The notes under the pieces are model-generated. The model saw only the letters and a program-made list of their open reading frames with translations, was not told the origin of the DNA and did no database searches. Shown in pieces: positions 2,677-23,927 of a stretch of DNA of 36,354 nt (position 1 is the stretch's first letter; the number at the start of each line of letters is the position of its first letter). The DNA is taken from positions 1 to 36,354 of the forward strand of contig NZ_JALLGL010000029.1 in NCBI RefSeq assembly GCF_023072675.1. Reading direction: 5' to 3'. Both the position numbers and the translations under genes were made by a program. This stretch comes from Streptomyces sp. XM83C (lineage in GTDB: Bacteria > Actinomycetota > Actinomycetes > Streptomycetales > Streptomycetaceae).

Positions 2677-2709
2677 CCCGGCAACTCTAGGACGTACCCG
2701 GTGCCGGTC

Positions 2710-3501
2710 CTACAGCGGTGTGACGTACGCCCCCGTGATGCCGCCGTCGACGAGGAAGTCGGTGGCGTTGACGAAGGAGGAGTCGTCGCTGGCGAGGAAG
2801 GCGACGGCGGCGGCGATCTCCTCGGCCTCGGCGAACCGGCCGAGCGGGATGTGGACGAGGCGGCGGGCGGCCCGCTCCGGGTCCTTGGCGAACAGCTCCC
2901 GCAGCAGCGGGGTGTTGACCGGGCCCGGGCACAGCGCGTTGACGCGGATGCCCTCGCGGGCGAACTGCACGCCGAGTTCGCGGGACAGGGCGAGGACGCC
3001 GCCCTTGGACGCGGTGTAGGAGATCTGGCTGGTGGCGGCACCCATACGGGCCACGAAGGAGGCGGTGTTGATGATGGAGCCGCGGCGCCGGCGGCGCATG
3101 TAGGGCAGCGCGGCCTTGCAGCACAGGTAGACGGAGGTGAGGTTGACCTCCTGGACGCGCTTCCAGGCCTCGAGGCCGGTCTCCAGGATGGAGTCGTCGT
3201 CGGGCGGGGAGATACCGGCGTTGTTGAACGCGACGTCGACGCTGCCGTAGGTGTCGTACGCCGTCGCGAACAGCGCTTCGACCTGCTCGGGGTCGGTGAC
3301 GTCGACCCTGACGAACAGTCCGCCGGTCTCCTCGGCGGCGGCCTTGCCGCGGGCCTCGTCGATGTCGCCGCAGACGACGTGGGCGCCCTCGGAGGCGAGC
3401 CGCCGTGCGCTGGCGAGGCCGATGCCGCTGCCGGCTCCGGTGACGACGGCGGTCCGGCCGACGAGGCGGCGGCACACGCTCTGCTCGTTGTGAACGGTCA
3501 C
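2710..3501 (-). CDS. Short-chain dehydrogenase/reductase of the glnA4 operon
   Basis: The 263-residue product is a classical SDR. The Rossmann glycine motif TGAGSGIG is at about 21-28, the acidic D45/D47 region (CGDIDEA) suggests NAD rather than NADP, NNAG is at 93-96, and the catalytic Ser-Tyr-Lys set is NTAS at about 148 with YTASK (Tyr162, Lys166). The end GGITGAYVTPL is typical of the family. The GTG start at 3501 overlaps the aldehyde dehydrogenase stop as GTGA, so the two are translationally coupled and SDR is the last gene of the operon. In this context it probably oxidises a hydroxyl group on a gamma-glutamylated amine to an aldehyde. That substrate assignment is inference; the family covers many alcohols and ketones. 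Confidence 0.9.
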   Translation of the reverse strand: MTVHNEQSVCRRLVGRTAVVTGAGSGIGLASARRLASEGAHVVCGDIDEARGKAAAEETGGLFVRVDVTDPEQVEALFATAYDTYGSVDVAFNNAGISPPDDDSILETGLEAWKRVQEVNLTSVYLCCKAALPYMRRRRRGSIINTASFVARMGAATSQISYTASKGGVLALSRELGVQFAREGIRVNALCPGPVNTPLLRELFAKDPERAARRLVHIPLGRFAEAEEIAAAVAFLASDDSSFVNATDFLVDGGITGAYVTPL

Positions 3502-4895
3502 TGTGCGGGGCCCTCCGTGCTGATGAAGACGTTCTTGGTCTCGGTGAAGGCGGTCAGGGCGTCGGGGCCGAGTTCCCGGCCGAGGCCGGACTGTTTGAAG
3601 CCGCCGAACGGGGTCCAGTAGCGGACGCTGGAGTGGGAGTTGACGGACAGGTTCCCGGCGCGCACCGCCTGGGCGACGCGCAGGGCGCGGCCGACGTCGC
3701 GGGTCCACACCGAGCCGGACAGGCCGTGGTCGGTGGCGTTGGCGAGGCGGACCGCCTCGGCCTCGTCGTCGAAGGGCAGGACGACGGCGACGGGTCCGAA
3801 GACCTCCTCGACGGCCACGCGCGCGTGCGGGTCGACGTCGGTGAGGACGGTCGGCGGGAACCAGAAGCCGGGGCCTTCGGGGGCCTTGCCGCGGATGCCG
3901 GGCGCGCCGGGGTCGACGTAGGAGCGGACCCGGTCGAGCTGGAGGCGGGAGATGAGCGGGCCCATCTGCGTGGACTCGTCGGCGGGGTCGCCGACGGTGA
4001 CGGCCTCGATCGCGGGGGCGAGCAGGGCGAGGAAACGGTCGTACGCCGAGGACTGGACGAGGATGCGGGTGCGGGCGCAGCAGTCCTGCCCGGCGTTGTC
4101 GAGGAACGACATGGGGGCGCTTGCCGCGGCGGCCTCCAGGTCGGCGTCGGCGAAGACGATGTTGGGGCTCTTGCCGCCGAGTTCGAGGGTGACGCGTTTG
4201 ACGCGGTCGGCGCTCTTGGCGAGGACCTGCTTGCCGACGGCGGTCGACCCCGTGAAGACGATCTTGGCGACGCCGGGGTGTTCCACGAGGGCGTTCCCGG
4301 CGACGGGGCCGTGACCGGGCAGCACCTGGAAGAGGCCTTCGGGCAGGCCAGCGGCGAGGGCGAGTTCGGCGAGGCGCAGCGCGGTGAGCGGGGTGGTCTC
4401 GGCGGGTTTCAGGATCACCGCGTTGCCGGCGGCGAGTGCGGGCGCGGTGCCCCAGGCGGCGATCGGCATGGGGAAGTTCCACGGGGCGATGACGCCGACC
4501 ACGCCGAGCGGTTCGAGGATCGTCACGTCGAGGCCGCCGGGTACGGGGATCTGGCGGCCGGTCAGGCGTTCCACTCCCCCGGCGGCGTAGTCGAGCAGGT
4601 CGCGGACGTTGCCGGCCTCCCAGCGGGCGTTGCCGATGGTGTGCCCGGCCTCGCGGACCTCCAGCCGGGCCAGTTCCTCCAGGTGGCTGTCGACGGTGGT
4701 GGCGAACCGGCGCAGCAGCCGCGCCCGGTCGCCGGGCGGCAGCGCGGCCCAGCGGGTCTGGGCGCGGGCGGCGCGGGCGACGGCGGCGTCCACGTCGGCG
4801 GGGGTCGCGGCGGGGACGGTGGCGACGACGTCCTCGGTGGCGGGGTTCAGCACCCGCAGTTCGGACTGGGGGACCTGTTCGGGCTGGTCGGGCAA
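3498..4895 (-). CDS. NAD(P)-dependent aldehyde dehydrogenase of the glnA4 operon
   Basis: This is an aldehyde dehydrogenase of about 465 residues. The cofactor-site motif APWNFPM is at about 137-143, FTGSTAVGK at about 224-231, the general-base Glu is in LELGGK (about 238), and the nucleophile Cys is in GQDC (about 272). The start is uncertain. TTG 4895 has a GAGG six bases upstream; an in-frame GTG at 4907 would add four residues. Both lie in a 31-base copy of the glnA 3' end, so the start region appears to have come from a local duplication. Its stop overlaps the SDR start by 4 bases. The expected role is oxidation of an aldehyde, possibly gamma-glutamyl-aminoacetaldehyde, to the acid. Relatives include gamma-glutamyl-gamma-aminobutyraldehyde dehydrogenases. 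Confidence 0.88.
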   Translation of the reverse strand: MPDQPEQVPQSELRVLNPATEDVVATVPAATPADVDAAVARAARAQTRWAALPPGDRARLLRRFATTVDSHLEELARLEVREAGHTIGNARWEAGNVRDLLDYAAGGVERLTGRQIPVPGGLDVTILEPLGVVGVIAPWNFPMPIAAWGTAPALAAGNAVILKPAETTPLTALRLAELALAAGLPEGLFQVLPGHGPVAGNALVEHPGVAKIVFTGSTAVGKQVLAKSADRVKRVTLELGGKSPNIVFADADLEAAAASAPMSFLDNAGQDCCARTRILVQSSAYDRFLALLAPAIEAVTVGDPADESTQMGPLISRLQLDRVRSYVDPGAPGIRGKAPEGPGFWFPPTVLTDVDPHARVAVEEVFGPVAVVLPFDDEAEAVRLANATDHGLSGSVWTRDVGRALRVAQAVRAGNLSVNSHSSVRYWTPFGGFKQSGLGRELGPDALTAFTETKNVFISTEGPAQ

Positions 4896-18092: not shown

Positions 18093-19043
18093 ATGAGACG
18101 CCGTACGCCCGCTCCGCCCTCGCCGCTCCCCCAGCGGCACGGTGTCGATCCGGTGCGGGTGCGGCTGCCCGCCGCGGGCGGTTGGGCGACGGTGCGGGAG
18201 CATCTCGTGGAGCGGCTCAGCGGGGCCGGGCCGGGTGTCGTCGAGGCCATGTTCGCCGAGGGGCTGATCGTCGGTGCGGACGGGCAACCCGTGGCGCCGG
18301 ACGCGCCCTATGTGCCGGGCCTGTACGTGTGGTTCCACCGGGAGCTCGCACCGGAGGTGCCGGTGCCGTTCGAGGTCGGCGTGGTGTACCGGGACGAGCA
18401 CATCCTCGTCGCCGACAAGCCGCACTTCCTCGCCACGACCCCGCGCGGCAGCCATGTCACCGAGACCGCGCTGGCGCGGCTGCGCCGGGAGCTGGGGCTG
18501 CCGACGCTGACCGCCGCGCACCGGCTGGACCGCCTCACCGCGGGGCTGGTGCTGTTCACGGTCCGGCCGGAGGAACGCGGCGCCTACCAGACCCTGTTCC
18601 GCGACCGACGGGTGCGCAAGGCGTACGAGGCGGTCGCGCCGTACGATCCGGCGCTTGACCTGCCGGTGACCGTGCGCAGCCGCATCGTGAAGGAGCGCGG
18701 CGAGCTGACCGCGCGTGAGGTCCCCGGGGAGCCCAACGCGGTCACCCGGATCGAGCCGGCCGAGCATCGCGCCGACGGCCTGGCCCGGTACCGGCTGCTG
18801 CCGGCCACCGGTCAGACGCATCAACTGCGCGTGCACATGAACGCCCTGGGCGTGCCCCTGCTGGGCGATCCGCTCTACCCGAACGTCGCCGCCCCCGCCC
18901 CGCCCGGTGACTTCCGGCGCCCGCTGCAACTAATCGCGGCGGAACTGGAGTTCACCGATCCGGTGACGGGGGCGGAGCACCGTTTCCGCAGTACGCGCAC
19001 GCTCGCGGCATGGGAGTCGTACGCGGACTGGGCGGGCACCTGA
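18093..19043 (+). CDS. RluA-family pseudouridine synthase
   Basis: The 316-residue product contains the RluA-type catalytic core from about 95 to 300. The active-site loop AAHRLDRLTAGL holds the catalytic Asp146, DKPHFLATTP gives the family motif I, and TGQTHQLRVHMNALGVPLLGDPLYP is the motif III region. The first 90 residues are a shorter, S4-like N-terminus (VREHLVERLSGAGPGVVEAMFAEGLIVGADG). It isomerises specific uridines in rRNA or tRNA; which position is not readable. ATG 18093 has no strong ribosome site and lies 124 bases past the upstream stop, beyond a terminator, so it has its own promoter somewhere in 18012-18092. Confidence 0.9.
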   Translation: MRRRTPAPPSPLPQRHGVDPVRVRLPAAGGWATVREHLVERLSGAGPGVVEAMFAEGLIVGADGQPVAPDAPYVPGLYVWFHRELAPEVPVPFEVGVVYRDEHILVADKPHFLATTPRGSHVTETALARLRRELGLPTLTAAHRLDRLTAGLVLFTVRPEERGAYQTLFRDRRVRKAYEAVAPYDPALDLPVTVRSRIVKERGELTAREVPGEPNAVTRIEPAEHRADGLARYRLLPATGQTHQLRVHMNALGVPLLGDPLYPNVAAPAPPGDFRRPLQLIAAELEFTDPVTGAEHRFRSTRTLAAWESYADWAGT

Positions 19044-19206: not shown

Positions 19207-20703
19207 TCAGTAGCCGCGCCACCAGCGCAGGAACCGCTGCCACGCGCCGAGCGGGCGCTGCGGTTCCGGTTCCGCCGGGGGGGCGGGGGGCGGAATCTCC
19301 TGCCGCGGCGGCTGCGGCTCCGGTACGGGGTCCGGGTCCGGCAGCGGCTCCGCGAGGATGTCTGCGACCTTCCACTGGGGCTGGGGCGGCGCGACCGAGC
19401 CGTGGCTGGGGGCCGCCATGACGTCCTGCTGCGGTTTGGGGTCGAACCGAACCGGCAGCTCGATCAGATGCCGTGACGAGATCGACTCGCGGTAGCGCAG
19501 TTCCTCCTCGTCGCAGTCGAGCTGGACGTCGGGCAGCCGCATCAGCAGCGCGTCGACGCCGACCTCGGCGATGGCGCGGCCGATGTCCTGCCCGGGGCAC
19601 TCGTGCGGGCCGCCGCCGAAGGCAAGGTGGGAGCGGTTGCCTTTCATGTTGGCGCTCAGGTCGGGCCGTACCCGTGGGTCGATGTTGCCGGCCACGGGCG
19701 CGAACAGCAGCCCGTCGCCCTTGCGGATGCGTTTGCCGCCCAGCTCGGTGTCCTGTTTGGCGTAGTAGGCGAAGACGGCGCTGAACGGCGGCTCGTCCCA
19801 CAGGGACTGCTCGACCGCCTCCATGACCGTCATCTGGCCGCCGTTGAGACGGGCGTAGAACCGGTCGTCGGTGAGGACCATGCGCAGCGCGTTGGCCAGC
19901 AGGTTGGCGGTGGCCTCGTAGGCCGCCATCAGCACCAGCCACAGATGCTTGGTGACCTCGTCGTCGGTGAGGCCGGCCGGATGGCTGATCAGTTCGCTGG
20001 CGAAGTCCTCCTCTTGTTCCTGGCGTCGCCGTGCCGTCAGCTCGCTCAGCTTCTCCATCACGTAGGCGTGGCTGGCGATGGCCGTCTCGGTGCCCTTGAG
20101 CATGTCGCGGGCAGCGTGCACCATGCGCTCGTTGTACTCCTCCGGCAGGCCGAGGATCTCGCACATGACGGCCATCGGGAGGTGGTCGGCGAACTGGCTG
20201 ACCAGGTCGGCGTGGCCCTTCTCGCAGAACCGGTTGACGAGCCGCTGGGTGTAGCGGTTGATGTACCGGCGCAGGGCGCGGTGGTTGATGGTGGACATGG
20301 CGGCCATGACCGCGCCGCGCAGCCGCTGGTGCTCCTCGCCCTCGGTGTGGGAGCAGATGGGCTCCCAGGTGATGTGCGGCATCAGCGGGTTGTCGGGGCT
20401 GACCCTGCCCTCCTTGAGCGGGGTCCAGATGCGGCTGTCCCGGCAGTACTCGGCGGGCGAGGTCACCATGTGCAGGTTCTCGGCGTGACCGAGGACGATC
20501 CACATCGGTACGTCGTCGTGGAGCAGGACGGGGGCCACGGCGCCGTGCTCCTCGCGCAGGTCCTCGTACAGGTCGCCGAGGTTCTCGGCGCCGGGGCCGT
20601 ACAGCCGGACCAGCCCGCCCGGGCCCCGGTCGTGCGCGGGGCAGCCGGGGGGCGGGACCCGGGCGGGATCGTGCGTGGTCGTGCCGGGGTGTTCAGGAGT
20701 CAC
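19207..20703 (-). CDS. rarE: Conservon cytochrome P450 with EQSLW in place of ExxR
   Basis: The 498-residue product has a clear haem loop FGGGPHECPG (362-371, Cys369). Two other landmarks are altered. The I-helix reads AAYEAT (260-265), with Ala where most P450s have the oxygen-activating Thr, and the K-helix ExxR is EQSLW (298-302). The latter is known from CYP157-type Streptomyces P450s and their relatives, so it is a family trait. About 75 residues beyond the P450 fold form a Pro/Glu-rich tail ending in LGAWQRFLRWWRGY, which may touch the membrane. It is last in the five-gene conservon, 36 bases after the GTPase. GTG 20703 is preceded by GGAG. In S. coelicolor, RarA-E form a membrane-associated complex that restrains aerial growth and antibiotic production; the P450 substrate is unknown. 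Confidence 0.9.
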   Translation of the reverse strand: MTPEHPGTTTHDPARVPPPGCPAHDRGPGGLVRLYGPGAENLGDLYEDLREEHGAVAPVLLHDDVPMWIVLGHAENLHMVTSPAEYCRDSRIWTPLKEGRVSPDNPLMPHITWEPICSHTEGEEHQRLRGAVMAAMSTINHRALRRYINRYTQRLVNRFCEKGHADLVSQFADHLPMAVMCEILGLPEEYNERMVHAARDMLKGTETAIASHAYVMEKLSELTARRRQEQEEDFASELISHPAGLTDDEVTKHLWLVLMAAYEATANLLANALRMVLTDDRFYARLNGGQMTVMEAVEQSLWDEPPFSAVFAYYAKQDTELGGKRIRKGDGLLFAPVAGNIDPRVRPDLSANMKGNRSHLAFGGGPHECPGQDIGRAIAEVGVDALLMRLPDVQLDCDEEELRYRESISSRHLIELPVRFDPKPQQDVMAAPSHGSVAPPQPQWKVADILAEPLPDPDPVPEPQPPRQEIPPPAPPAEPEPQRPLGAWQRFLRWWRGY

Positions 20704-20739: not shown

Positions 20740-21357
20740 TCAGGTGAGGGTGCCGTTGGCGGCCATCAGCGCCTGAAGGAACCGCATGAGGGTCATCAGT
20801 ACGTCACGGCTGGAGGCGCGGCGGCGGGCGTCGCACTCGATGATCGGGATCTCGGGGGTCAGGTCGAGGGCCTGACGGAGATCCTCGATGGCGTAGCGGG
20901 GCGCGTCGGGGAAGGTGTTGACGGCGACCACGAAGGGCACACCGCGCTCCTCCAGCCGGCCCATGACCTCGAAGCTGACCTCCAGGCGGCGGGTGTCGAC
21001 GAGGACGACGGCGCCGAGCGCCCCCTCGAACAGGCCGTTCCACAGGAACCAGAAGCGTTCCTGGCCGGGGGTGCCGAAGAGGTACAGCACCACCTCGTCC
21101 GAGATGCGGATCCGGCCGAAGTCCATGGCCACGGTGGTGGCGGTCTTGGACGCGGAGCCGAAATTGTCGTCGACGCCGATGCCTGCCTGGGTCATGGTCT
21201 CCTCGGTGGTCAGCGGTTTGATCTCGCTGACCGAGCCGACCATGGTCGTCTTGCCGACGCCGAAGCCGCCCACGATGACGATCTTCGCGGCCGCCTGGGT
21301 GGAGTGGGGCAGCTGGTCCTCGGCCCGTGGTCCGGGGACGGTGTCAGAGGCTTTCAA
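20740..21357 (-). CDS. rarD: Conservon Ras-like GTPase (CvnD family)
   Basis: The 205-residue product is a small GTP-binding protein. G1/P-loop is GGFGVGKT (30-37), the G3 motif FGTPGQE (94-100), and the G4 position reads NTFP (147-150) rather than NKxD, as expected for MglA/CvnD-like prokaryotic GTPases. Its C-terminus has no lipidation Cys. Its role would be a switch controlled by the roadblock and kinase-like partners. Start is TTG 21357, supported by GAAAGG eight bases upstream and by an in-frame stop just above it. It lies 91 bases after the DUF742 gene, unlike the 4-base overlaps earlier in the operon. Confidence 0.92.
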   Translation of the reverse strand: MKASDTVPGPRAEDQLPHSTQAAAKIVIVGGFGVGKTTMVGSVSEIKPLTTEETMTQAGIGVDDNFGSASKTATTVAMDFGRIRISDEVVLYLFGTPGQERFWFLWNGLFEGALGAVVLVDTRRLEVSFEVMGRLEERGVPFVVAVNTFPDAPRYAIEDLRQALDLTPEIPIIECDARRRASSRDVLMTLMRFLQALMAANGTLT

Positions 21358-21448: not shown

Positions 21449-21877
21449 TCAGAGCCGTTCCAGTCCATGCATCACCGCTTCGAGGAGGGACCGGTCGGGC
21501 AGTTGCTGGCGCACGATCGGGGCGCGGGCGTGCACGGTGCCGGCCGCCAGCATGTCGGTGAGCAGCACGGTCATCGCGCTGAACGGCAGCCGTAAGTAGG
21601 CGGACAGTTCGGCGACGGACAGCGGGGACGCGCACAGCCGCAGCACTGCCGCCTCCTCCGGGGGGGCGGAGGCGGGCGGGTCGGCCCTCGCCACGATCAG
21701 GGTGACGAGGTCGAGCTGGGCGCGGTCGCCGTCCGGGCCGGTGATCGTGTAGAGCCGTTCCGGCTTCTTCGGCTCCTCGTCCTGCCCGGTCCCGCCCGGT
21801 GTGTGCCGCGGCGACGGCACGGGCGTGGAGGGCGGGTCGGAGGCCGGCCGGCGCCTGTGGCGTTGCGGAGGCGTCAT
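21449..21877 (-). CDS. rarC: Conservon DUF742 protein (CvnC family)
   Basis: The 142-residue product has a basic, Pro-rich N-terminus (about 1-45) and a DUF742 domain (about 48-140) including RLYTITGPDGDR, LDLVTLIVA, EAAVLRLCASPLSVAELSAYLRLPFSAMTVLLTDMLAAGTV and the end LLEAVMHGLERL. The central part looks like a winged-helix module. In conservons this protein is part of the membrane-associated complex with CvnA, B and D; its biochemical role is not settled. The ATG at 21877 overlaps the roadblock gene stop as ATGA, so the two are coupled. Confidence 0.92.
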   Translation of the reverse strand: MTPPQRHRRRPASDPPSTPVPSPRHTPGGTGQDEEPKKPERLYTITGPDGDRAQLDLVTLIVARADPPASAPPEEAAVLRLCASPLSVAELSAYLRLPFSAMTVLLTDMLAAGTVHARAPIVRQQLPDRSLLEAVMHGLERL

Positions 21878-22281
21878 ACGCTCTGCCCGTTGCGCCGGGG
21901 CGGAGTGGTCAGGTGCTGGCCGATGCGGACGACGAGGTCGCGCATGTAGTGGCTCATCAGGCCGGGCTCGCACACCATGTCCGACAGGACCGCGAGGTAG
22001 GCGTTGGCGCCGGCGGCCATGAGGTAGAAGTAGCCGCCGTTGAGTTCGACGAGGACGAGTTTCATCTCGCCGTCGGTGGCGGGGATCTCGTCGGCGACCG
22101 CGGTGACCAGGCTCTGCATGCCCGCGCAGGCGGCGGCGACACGGTCGGCGGCGTCGGGGTCGCCGCCGTACCGGGCGATGCGCAGGCCGTCGGCCGACAG
22201 CACCACGATCATCTCGATGCCGGGCGCGCTGTTGTACAGGTCCCTGAGCATCCAGTCGAAGTTCTGTCGTTGCTGGATCAC
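21874..22281 (-). CDS. rarB: Conservon roadblock/LC7 protein (CvnB family)
   Basis: The 135-residue product is a roadblock/LC7 fold (FDWMLRDLYNSAPGIEMIVVLSADGLRIARYGG through LVVRIGQHL). Such proteins act as regulators of, or docking partners for, MglA/CvnD-type GTPases, comparable to MglB. The GTG start at 22281 overlaps the rarA stop as GTGA, and its own stop overlaps the rarC start, so rarA, rarB and rarC are tightly coupled. It lacks any membrane segment and is expected to sit at the membrane only through its partners. Confidence 0.93.
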   Translation of the reverse strand: MIQQRQNFDWMLRDLYNSAPGIEMIVVLSADGLRIARYGGDPDAADRVAAACAGMQSLVTAVADEIPATDGEMKLVLVELNGGYFYLMAAGANAYLAVLSDMVCEPGLMSHYMRDLVVRIGQHLTTPPRRNGQSV

Positions 22282-23927
22282 GTGAGGTCCCCCTCGTCAT
22301 CGGCCCCGGGGCGGGCCTTGTCGTCGATCAGGTAGGTGAACTTCTCGGGGTGGCGCGTGAACTCGGTGGGGTCTGCGCCCTCGGGCAGGCCCTTGCGCAG
22401 GCCCTCCCAGAAGGACTCCACCCACAGGCCGGGCGGCCGGTCGTCCTTCTGGACCTCCTCGCCCCTGGCCCTGGCCTCCTCCCGCTGCCGCGCCTCGTGC
22501 TCCTCCCAGATGGTGGGGCGGCCTTCGCGCTTGGCCTCGGCCTCCTCGCGGAGCTGTTCGGCGATGCGCTCGCTGAGGGAGGTCTGGATCTTGCGGCGGC
22601 GCTGCGGGAGGCCCTTGTCGGTCCACTCGGTGACGATGGGCACCTCGTCGTCGAGGGAGAGGTCGGCCGGGATGCGCGGATTGGTGGGCCGGCGGCGCTT
22701 CGGCGGGCGCTTGGGGCCCTCGACGCCGTCGGTGTCGGCGATCGGCAGCGAGGTGGCGCCGATGCCGTGCGCGTAGCCGGGCGCGGGGTCGCTGGTGACC
22801 ATCTCGCGGGGGACTACCAGGACGGCCTTGGTGCCGCCGTACGCGGAGGGCCGCAGCGAGATCTGCATCTTGTACGTGGTGCACAGACGGCCGACGACGG
22901 CGAGGCCGAGCCGCGGGGCCTCGCTGATGGCCTGGAGGTCCTCGGCCCGCTTGGCCTGCTCGATGAGTTCCTCCAGGCGCAGCCGGGCCTCTTCGGTGAG
23001 GCTGACGCCGGAGTCCTCGATCTCGATGGCGATGCCGGTCTGCACCTCGGTGGCGGTCACATGGACCTTGGTGGTCGGCGGCGAGTAGCGGGTGGCGTTG
23101 TCGAGGAGTTCCGCGCAGGCGTGGATGACGGGCTCGACGGAGATGCCGCGGATGTTGACCTTGGCGATGTTGTCGAGGGAGATGCGCGGGTACTCCAGGA
23201 TGCGCGACATGGCGCCGCGCAGCACGCTGTACAGCGGCACGGGCAGCGGCCACTGGCGGCCGGGCCGGCCGCCGCCGAGGACGGCGACGGAGTCGGCGAG
23301 GCGGCCGATCATCGCGGTGCCGTGGTCGATGCGCAGCAGGTCGTCGAAGACCTCGGGGTTGCGTCCGTGGTCCTCCTCCATCTCGCGGAGTTCCTTGGCC
23401 TGCTGGTGGACGATGGCCTGGACGCGGCGGGCGACGCTGACGAAGGAGCGCTGCGAGGAATCCCGCAGGGCCTCCTCGAACTCGATGAGCCGCAGCGCGG
23501 ACTTGATGACTTCGAGCTGTGTCTTGGACAGCGCCCGGAAGTGTGGATTCTCCAGGGAGAGTTGACGCAGTACCTCTCGCGGGGAGTGTCCCTGGTGCAT
23601 CCGGTCGATGGCGGCGGGCAGATGCTCCTTGGCGAGGCGCCGGTTCTCCTCCTCGTGGCCGGCGACGCGCTGTTCGAGGTACGCCGTGCGCCGGACGTGC
23701 TCGGCGCGGGCCGACCGCAGCAGCCGGCCTCGCCGCACCGCCTCGCAGGCCGTCGCGAGCACGAGCAGCGTGGCGACGGCCCCGCACAGGCCGACGGCGG
23801 TCCGGGCCGGCTGCGCCACCAGGGCGACGGCGGCTCCGGTCGCCGCGGCCGTCGCTATGGCGGGCAGCAACAGCACGCTCGCGTCGGGGAGTTCGCGGCG
23901 ACCAGGAGGGGATTGGACTCTCACCAT
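22278..23927 (-). CDS. rarA: Conservon sensor histidine-kinase-like protein (CvnA family)
   Basis: The 549-residue product begins with two hydrophobic helices (about 16-38 and 42-63), then a charged helical stretch, a dimerisation-like region with RIDHGTAMIGRLAD (His202) and a HATPase-type domain with HACAELLDNATRY (N-box, Asn277), EDSGVS (weak G1) and RLGLAVVGRL (G2-like). It resembles nitrate/sulfonate-sensor kinases but has lost parts of the ATP-binding glycine motifs, so kinase activity is uncertain. The last 170 residues are charged and disordered-looking. ATG 23927 follows GAGGG at five bases. It is the first gene of the five-gene operon; in S. coelicolor the corresponding rarA mutants enhance aerial mycelium and pigment production. 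Confidence 0.92.
   Translation of the reverse strand: MVRVQSPPGRRELPDASVLLLPAIATAAATGAAVALVAQPARTAVGLCGAVATLLVLATACEAVRRGRLLRSARAEHVRRTAYLEQRVAGHEEENRRLAKEHLPAAIDRMHQGHSPREVLRQLSLENPHFRALSKTQLEVIKSALRLIEFEEALRDSSQRSFVSVARRVQAIVHQQAKELREMEEDHGRNPEVFDDLLRIDHGTAMIGRLADSVAVLGGGRPGRQWPLPVPLYSVLRGAMSRILEYPRISLDNIAKVNIRGISVEPVIHACAELLDNATRYSPPTTKVHVTATEVQTGIAIEIEDSGVSLTEEARLRLEELIEQAKRAEDLQAISEAPRLGLAVVGRLCTTYKMQISLRPSAYGGTKAVLVVPREMVTSDPAPGYAHGIGATSLPIADTDGVEGPKRPPKRRRPTNPRIPADLSLDDEVPIVTEWTDKGLPQRRRKIQTSLSERIAEQLREEAEAKREGRPTIWEEHEARQREEARARGEEVQKDDRPPGLWVESFWEGLRKGLPEGADPTEFTRHPEKFTYLIDDKARPGADDEGDLT

Follow-up and report, generated by a model that had tools for sequence, protein, structure and literature searches.

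CvnE of Streptomyces sp. XM83C stands about an even chance of being a haem-thiolate subunit with a P450 fold on the input side of its conservon, tethered to the membrane and acting as a ligand-responsive modulator of CvnA. Of the mechanisms considered, this sensor role has the best support, and it is unproven. A CYP157 in a conservon is ordinary; what is unusual is a conserved tip at the C-terminus, a lineage-specific loss of the I-helix Thr with an invariant haem site, and a pairing with terpene synthases. The window, meaning the whole stretch of 36,354 nucleotides that was analysed, holds the features collected in Table 1.

Table 1. Features of the cvnE locus, with positions in the window.
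Feature	Positions	Strand	Remark
cvnE, CYP157-type P450	19207..20703	minus	498 aa, GTG start; P450 fold in model
P450 domain, residues 1-420	19444..20703	minus	alignment to solved P450s stops at residue 420; high pLDDT
I-helix AAYEAT, residues 260-265, Ala264 at Thr position	19909..19926	minus	alignment to solved P450s and relatives
K-helix VEQSLW, residues 297-302, ExxR replaced	19798..19815	minus	Trp302 invariant in 243/243
Haem loop FGGGPHECPG, residues 362-371, Cys369	19591..19620	minus	intact
Pro-rich linker, residues 421-484	19252..19443	minus	low model confidence
C-terminal tip LGAWQRFLRWWRGY, residues 485-498	19210..19251	minus	helix 487-495 in model
cvnD, small GTPase	20740..21357	minus	
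cvnC, DUF742	21449..21877	minus	
cvnB, Roadblock/LC7	21874..22281	minus	
cvnA, HATPase	22278..23927	minus	two TM helices close together
CvnA C-terminal motif GLWVESFWEGLR, residues 500-511	22395..22430	minus	candidate partner of CvnE tail

The conservon is complete: cvnA, cvnB, cvnC and cvnD are followed by the P450 gene cvnE as the fifth gene, and the next gene beyond it is a convergent pseudouridine synthase gene (18093-19043). The earlier note had placed an atypical P450 here, which is borne out; it gave no strand, and the minus strand is newly assigned. The CvnA of the window has predicted TM helices at residues 18-36 and 43-61 by hydropathy, leaving no room for an extracytoplasmic sensor domain, and a Pfam scan of this protein found no sensor domain. 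The gene order and the CvnA without an extracytoplasmic sensor domain are those of a CvnE-type conservon (actinobacterial G-protein system, AGPS). A simple hydropathy scan finds two TM helices in 167 of 180 CvnA proteins and fewer than two in the other 13; the gap is 60 residues or less in 165 of the 167 and long in two. Rfam and promoter scans of the window operon returned nothing useful. According to the available text of two studies, CvnE and CvnF accompany sensor-less CvnA proteins (PMC13343842, PMC8510531), and passages of the former propose CvnE as a sensor or modulator of CvnA and report that CvnF8 stimulates CvnA8. The AGPS CvnE proteins described in those passages resemble the window, with the P450 gene after cvnD and a CvnA without a sensor domain. 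The protein tested there was CvnF8 (GAF), not CvnE; for CvnE, an AlphaFold2 model of CvnE11 with CvnA11 is given.

CvnE passes PF00067 (33 bits, cut-off 22.8). Its AlphaFold2 model has a P450 fold with a mean pLDDT of 87.1, and Foldseek with this model returns CYP154C2 as the best match (TM 0.85 by target length), with CYP154C1 and P450eryF also among the first matches. An intact haem Cys loop, EQSLW in place of the K-helix ExxR, and Ala at the oxygen-activating Thr position had all been claimed for this protein. The first is confirmed, and so is the second: alignment sets VEQSLW against the VEETLR of solved P450s, with both the Glu and the Arg of ExxR replaced (Gln299, Trp302). The third is correct for the window, where AAYEAT aligns with AGHETT and Ala264 is found where Thr stands, but Ala is not fixed in the family. 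CvnE thus lacks both hallmarks of a canonical P450 monooxygenase, the ExxR and the I-helix Thr. Its assignment to CYP157 rests on the EQxLW K-helix, as the motif is printed in the available text of PMC3599690, and on conservon linkage. The same text reports the ExxR-less CYP157 and its conservon link, with E297QSLW in CYP157C1 of S. coelicolor (Rupasinghe 2006, as cited there). CYP157C1 is like the window CvnE in its K-helix EQSLW, its retained Cys and its linkage to a conservon. The P450-derived glycosyltransferase activators (TIGR04515) are a further case of a P450 fold put to a helper role; CvnE differs from them in keeping the haem Cys and scores 96.7 bits, below their cut-off of 343.

CYP157 relatives are found throughout the genus sample, where 150 of 150 genomes have a match at E <= 1e-40, and at E <= 1e-60 a match occurs in 91 of 394 genomes (17 of 137 genera) of the class sample; CYP157 is also present in all 48 Streptomyces studied, as reported in the accessible part of PMC6408508. 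The loci examined were the best 80 of 91 relatives, 120 fetched stretches and loci returned by searches, and 255 loci with a strong match gave 243 distinct sequences. The haem Cys and the Trp at the ExxR Arg position are present in all 243. The Thr position holds Ala in 131, Thr in 67, Ser in 22, Asn in 10, Pro in 7 and Gly in 6, and the residue after it is Thr in 239 of 243. The window clade (at least 63% identity, 128 rows) has Ala in 113, Ser in 7, Asn in 4 and Thr in 4. Loss of the Thr is lineage-specific: 124 of 128 close relatives have Ala, Ser or Asn there, and Thr stands in 53 of the 90 tailed, conservon-linked relatives below 63% identity. Thr loss as a defining trait of the family is ruled out by the 67 relatives that keep it.

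Retention of Thr in 67 relatives means that part of the CYP157 family may be catalytic. P450eryF (CYP107A1) shares with CvnE the P450 fold and an Ala at the I-helix Thr position, which is Ala245 of the wild type in the titles of its structure entries. P450eryF is a working hydroxylase despite this Ala, so Ala at the Thr position does not by itself abolish turnover. It differs from CvnE in having no comparable tail in the matched chain (403 residues). The earlier note had suggested that CvnE may have a sensor-type role instead of being an ordinary monooxygenase; the atypical P450, the family-wide loss of ExxR and the sensor-less CvnA agree with that role, but the Ala for Thr is, given P450eryF, not decisive for it.

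Terpene synthases were sought within 1.5 kb downstream of the P450 with a profile grown from two neighbours, and they bear on an alternative that we consider unlikely: that CvnE uses non-standard machinery to work as a monooxygenase on a terpenoid or similar compound, and that the conservon either simply lies beside it or responds to its product. A synthase lies immediately downstream in 45 of the 90 tailed, conservon-linked relatives at 47-63% identity (43 convergent, two co-directional; the frames are a median of 68 bases apart). Within this set, 39 of 45 synthase-linked rows retain Thr, versus 14 of 45 without a synthase, and several relatives lacking a detected conservon adjoin P450s resembling an albaflavenone monooxygenase or a pentalenene oxygenase. 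These observations, together with the activity of P450eryF, favour turnover, but an invariant Trp replaces the ExxR Arg in every relative, 121 of 128 rows in the window lineage lack a synthase within 1.5 kb, the Thr is mostly gone from that lineage, and the link between Thr and synthase is not significant on 12 independent tree pairs (median p 0.69). Synthase loss as the driver of Thr loss, suggested by the counts, was set aside on those pairs.

A downstream synthase is also found in 7 of the 128 close relatives, in 2 of the 13 tailless relatives, and in 2 of the 12 relatives without a detected conservon, two more of which have one elsewhere. In six of the seven close synthase-linked relatives, the pseudouridine synthase gene likewise lies within 1.5 kb and is separated from the P450 frame by 22-24 bases. 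The profile detects no terpene synthase at the window locus, and none was found upstream of conservon-linked relatives in a control covering the 74 of 90 rows with at least 1 kb beyond cvnA. Among 26 genus genomes with 122 synthase-domain matches, 7 of 27 listed CYP157 loci lie within 1 kb of one versus 0.05 expected, a figure that treats related loci as independent and leaves G002, G012 and G021, which have no CYP157 coordinates listed, uncounted.

The synthases are diverse: 51 frames of at least 300 aa form 12 groups at 50% identity. At E <= 1e-50 they match selina-4(15),7(11)-diene synthase (25), encapsulin-cargo terpene cyclase (10), eudesmol synthase (6), isoafricanol synthase (6), pentalenene synthase (5) and epi-cubebol synthase (1). 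A score above the model cut-off was seen only for L244. L244 and its relative L245 are tailless conservon CYP157s beside a 7-epi-alpha-eudesmol synthase gene (711 and 673 bits; cut-off 680), and their four sister loci, L246-L249, have no such gene. For the most part, synthase and CYP157 have been inherited together (Mantel r 0.85, reached by 0 of 2000 permutations), and the 45 cases therefore represent far fewer events. Two CYP157s, L204 and L207, are 82% and 81% identical to that of L062, and the synthases in the same place are 18% identical; synthases have therefore been exchanged there. A quickly built tree of 144 of the 243 rows, which came with long-branch warnings, requires at least 14 changes of synthase linkage.

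Beyond the P450 domain, CvnE has a tail of 78 residues (22 Pro, 8 Ala, 8 Gln, 5 Glu and 4 Trp). In the model it is a disordered Pro-rich linker followed by a short terminal helix, AWQRFLRWWRGY, at residues 487-495 (block pLDDT 83-86). A Pro/Glu-rich tail of 75 residues had been described; the tail is indeed Pro-rich and ends as had been stated, in LGAWQRFLRWWRGY, but it is not Glu-rich and is longer by three residues. The earlier note had named absence of the tail from all orthologues as grounds against its proposal, and the tail is in fact conserved in relatives. Tails span 32-141 residues (median 75) in 228 closed relatives and are absent in 13, which form two clades with a complete conservon; the other two of the 243 rows, L146 and L058, run off the contig end. 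The linker averages 25% Pro and 18% Ala across relatives. Over 1500 random pairs from 126 close relatives, identity is 71% in the last 12 residues, 76% in the core and 50% in the aligned columns of the linker.

The tip is rich in Trp. An end of the form WW.G occurs in 162 of 228 closed tailed relatives versus 0 of 1143 neighbouring proteins, and 197 of 228 have at least two Trp among their last 16 residues versus 105 of 1143, this background being made up of neighbours that are related and of crudely called genes. At least one Trp in that segment is common in the background too (217 of 228 versus 481 of 1143). The search that supplied 73 of the 243 rows used patterns including the tail peptide WQRFLRWW; without these rows, 156 closed tailed relatives remain: 90 have the WW.G end, and in the final 16 residues 125 have two or more Trp and 145 one or more. 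The tip was also considered as a tag common to other proteins and this was rejected: RWWRGx-stop occurs at six places in the own genome, and only for cvnE is it the end of a long frame. The median net charge is +4. The helical moment of the tip is modest, the median tail exceeding 92% of its own shuffles and 57% of tails exceeding 90%. Judged from these sequences, the signal of the tip is carried more by composition than by order. A loose aromatic-plus-basic test is failed by 7 of 228 tails, L022 among them. This close orthologue (G101:C1) has a stop codon within the linker and its product would end without the tip, making it a natural tip-less variant.

That CvnE is a degenerate P450 with a neutral, low-complexity tail is very improbable. 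The low complexity of the linker, the missing standard catalytic residues and the stop in L022 would suit such decay, but the core stays 76% identical pairwise, Cys and Trp are invariant, and conservation of the tip beyond a freely varying linker rules out a neutral tail.

Tips in other clades read SWWRRLLGRR, SWRARLRRFLRRR, RLWQAVSRWWNGY or GFWASLVGLFRRRR, in which the letters differ and the Trp/Arg chemistry is constant. Trp is also kept in the tip of 9 of the 12 tailed relatives with no conservon detected, that is, no BLAST match to cvnA-D within the fetched stretch; 10 of these 12 rows are well covered, L234 is cut by a contig end just upstream, and L068 has a flank of only 1.5 kb. Because the letters change at constant chemistry and Trp persists in these conservon-less tips, we infer that the tip is a membrane tether rather than a dock specific to the Rar proteins. 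In FtsA and other proteins with a C-terminal amphipathic membrane anchor, the anchor is a short basic and aromatic helix at the extreme C-terminus after a flexible linker. The CvnE tip resembles the FtsA type in layout, and its membrane binding is putative. Among CYP157s lacking a detected conservon, seven (L235, L238, L240, L241, L260, L262 and L068) adjoin the albaflavenone monooxygenase-like or pentalenene oxygenase-like P450s; these neighbours are at least 54% identical to the one in L241, and five of the seven have an NCBIfam match.

The earlier note had the tail docking CvnE on the RarA-D complex, which the varying tips and the conservon-less Trp make doubtful; a motif near the C-terminus of CvnA speaks the other way. 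A loose pattern of this motif (GLWVESFWEGL in the window) is found in 136 of 167 CvnA partners of tailed CvnE versus 0 of 13 partners of tailless CvnE, a co-occurrence that rests on about two tail losses in few tailless clades. Across five genomes, it is present in four of five CvnA partners of CYP157-type CvnE, the fifth being a variant, and in 0 of 32 other CvnA, a count covering the 37 of 52 matches that came as loci. The CvnA proteins of tailed CvnE have a C-terminal GxWxxAFxxG, and other CvnA proteins end AFQRG- or SLQRG-like. The motif points to direct docking as a lead and counts against a membrane tether. It is possible, though on balance we think it rather unlikely, that the tail docks on a protein, either CvnA through this motif or another partner, and is not a membrane anchor. 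Against this, the letters of the tip vary among clades, Trp persists where no conservon is detected, and in G055 (L331) the CvnA beside a Trp-tipped member of a second P450 family has IMGAFQRGTQSGR in place of the motif.

This second family was found through a paralogue in the own genome, on C137 at a contig edge, which belongs to a different P450 family; matches to cvnB, C or D lie nearby in 19 of 20 loci read. All 20 rows have Trp at the ExxR Arg position and Trp near the C-terminus, 19 have Pro at the Thr position and one has Ala, and 19 have the Cys. No terpene synthase was found beside the 20 loci. The own C137 copy (L276, minus strand, 2694-3725) lacks the haem Cys loop: from about residue 343 its frame continues directly with a tail that ends GGLWSQFLTWLTR. 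The Cys is kept in 19 of 19 relatives of this copy that were read, and its loss there may be a deletion, a pseudogene or an assembly fault.

In the sensor mechanism, the tip helix would sit in the membrane's inner face, holding the P450 beside CvnA. The P450 would be altered by binding a small hydrophobic molecule, or by a gas or a redox change at its haem, and would in turn alter CvnA; from CvnA the signal would pass through CvnB and CvnC to the GTPase CvnD. A terpene from the neighbouring synthase is a plausible ligand in relatives. The sensor and tether model is supported by the invariance of Trp and haem Cys while the Thr position drifts, and by the second conservon-linked family, with its Trp for Arg, changed Thr and Trp-containing tip. 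It gains further support from conservation of the tip past a variable linker (with its net charge and model helix), and from the two close TM helices of CvnA together with the stimulation of CvnA8 by CvnF8, as given in the available text of PMC13343842. It is weakened by the modest helical moment, the relatives that keep Thr, the 13 tailless rows with a complete conservon, the CvnA motif that tracks the tail, and a window locus without a terpene synthase.

CvnE in the conservon may sense or modify a terpene-like signal. A bolder form, which we regard as doubtful, would make the CYP157-type CvnE a membrane-tethered haem receptor for whatever terpene an adjacent, exchangeable synthase makes, switching a relay of histidine kinase and Ras-like GTPase; in the window lineage, with the synthase gone and the Thr decayed, it would act solely as a receptor, with its terpenoid coming from another site of synthesis.

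The ExxR-less CYP157 has been published, as has the proposal that CvnE modulates CvnA; the tail tip and the synthase pairing were not found in print. The accessible text of PMC3599690 describes no tail tip, lineage-wise Thr loss or synthase pairing for CYP157, and no report of the tip was found within the CYP157 literature, where it was sought. The text of PMC13343842 that was searched holds no terpene link to CvnE. CYP157 does occur in gene clusters, and terpene is the commonest cluster type with P450s, according to the available text of PMC7369989. No report of a conservon-synthase pairing was found in the accessible literature on conservons, CYP157 and Streptomyces terpene clusters, nor in passages of PMC6428758, PMC7369989, PMC13343842, PMC6604706, PMC8510531, PMC3123327, PMC13367870 and PMC8062868.

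For what conservons sense, the pairing of CvnE with terpene synthases offers a concrete candidate ligand class, the terpenoids. The 14-residue tip is a defined C-terminal peptide and gives a concrete target for deletion. If true, the terpene receptor reading would explain the presence of some Streptomyces terpene synthases by a role in signalling.
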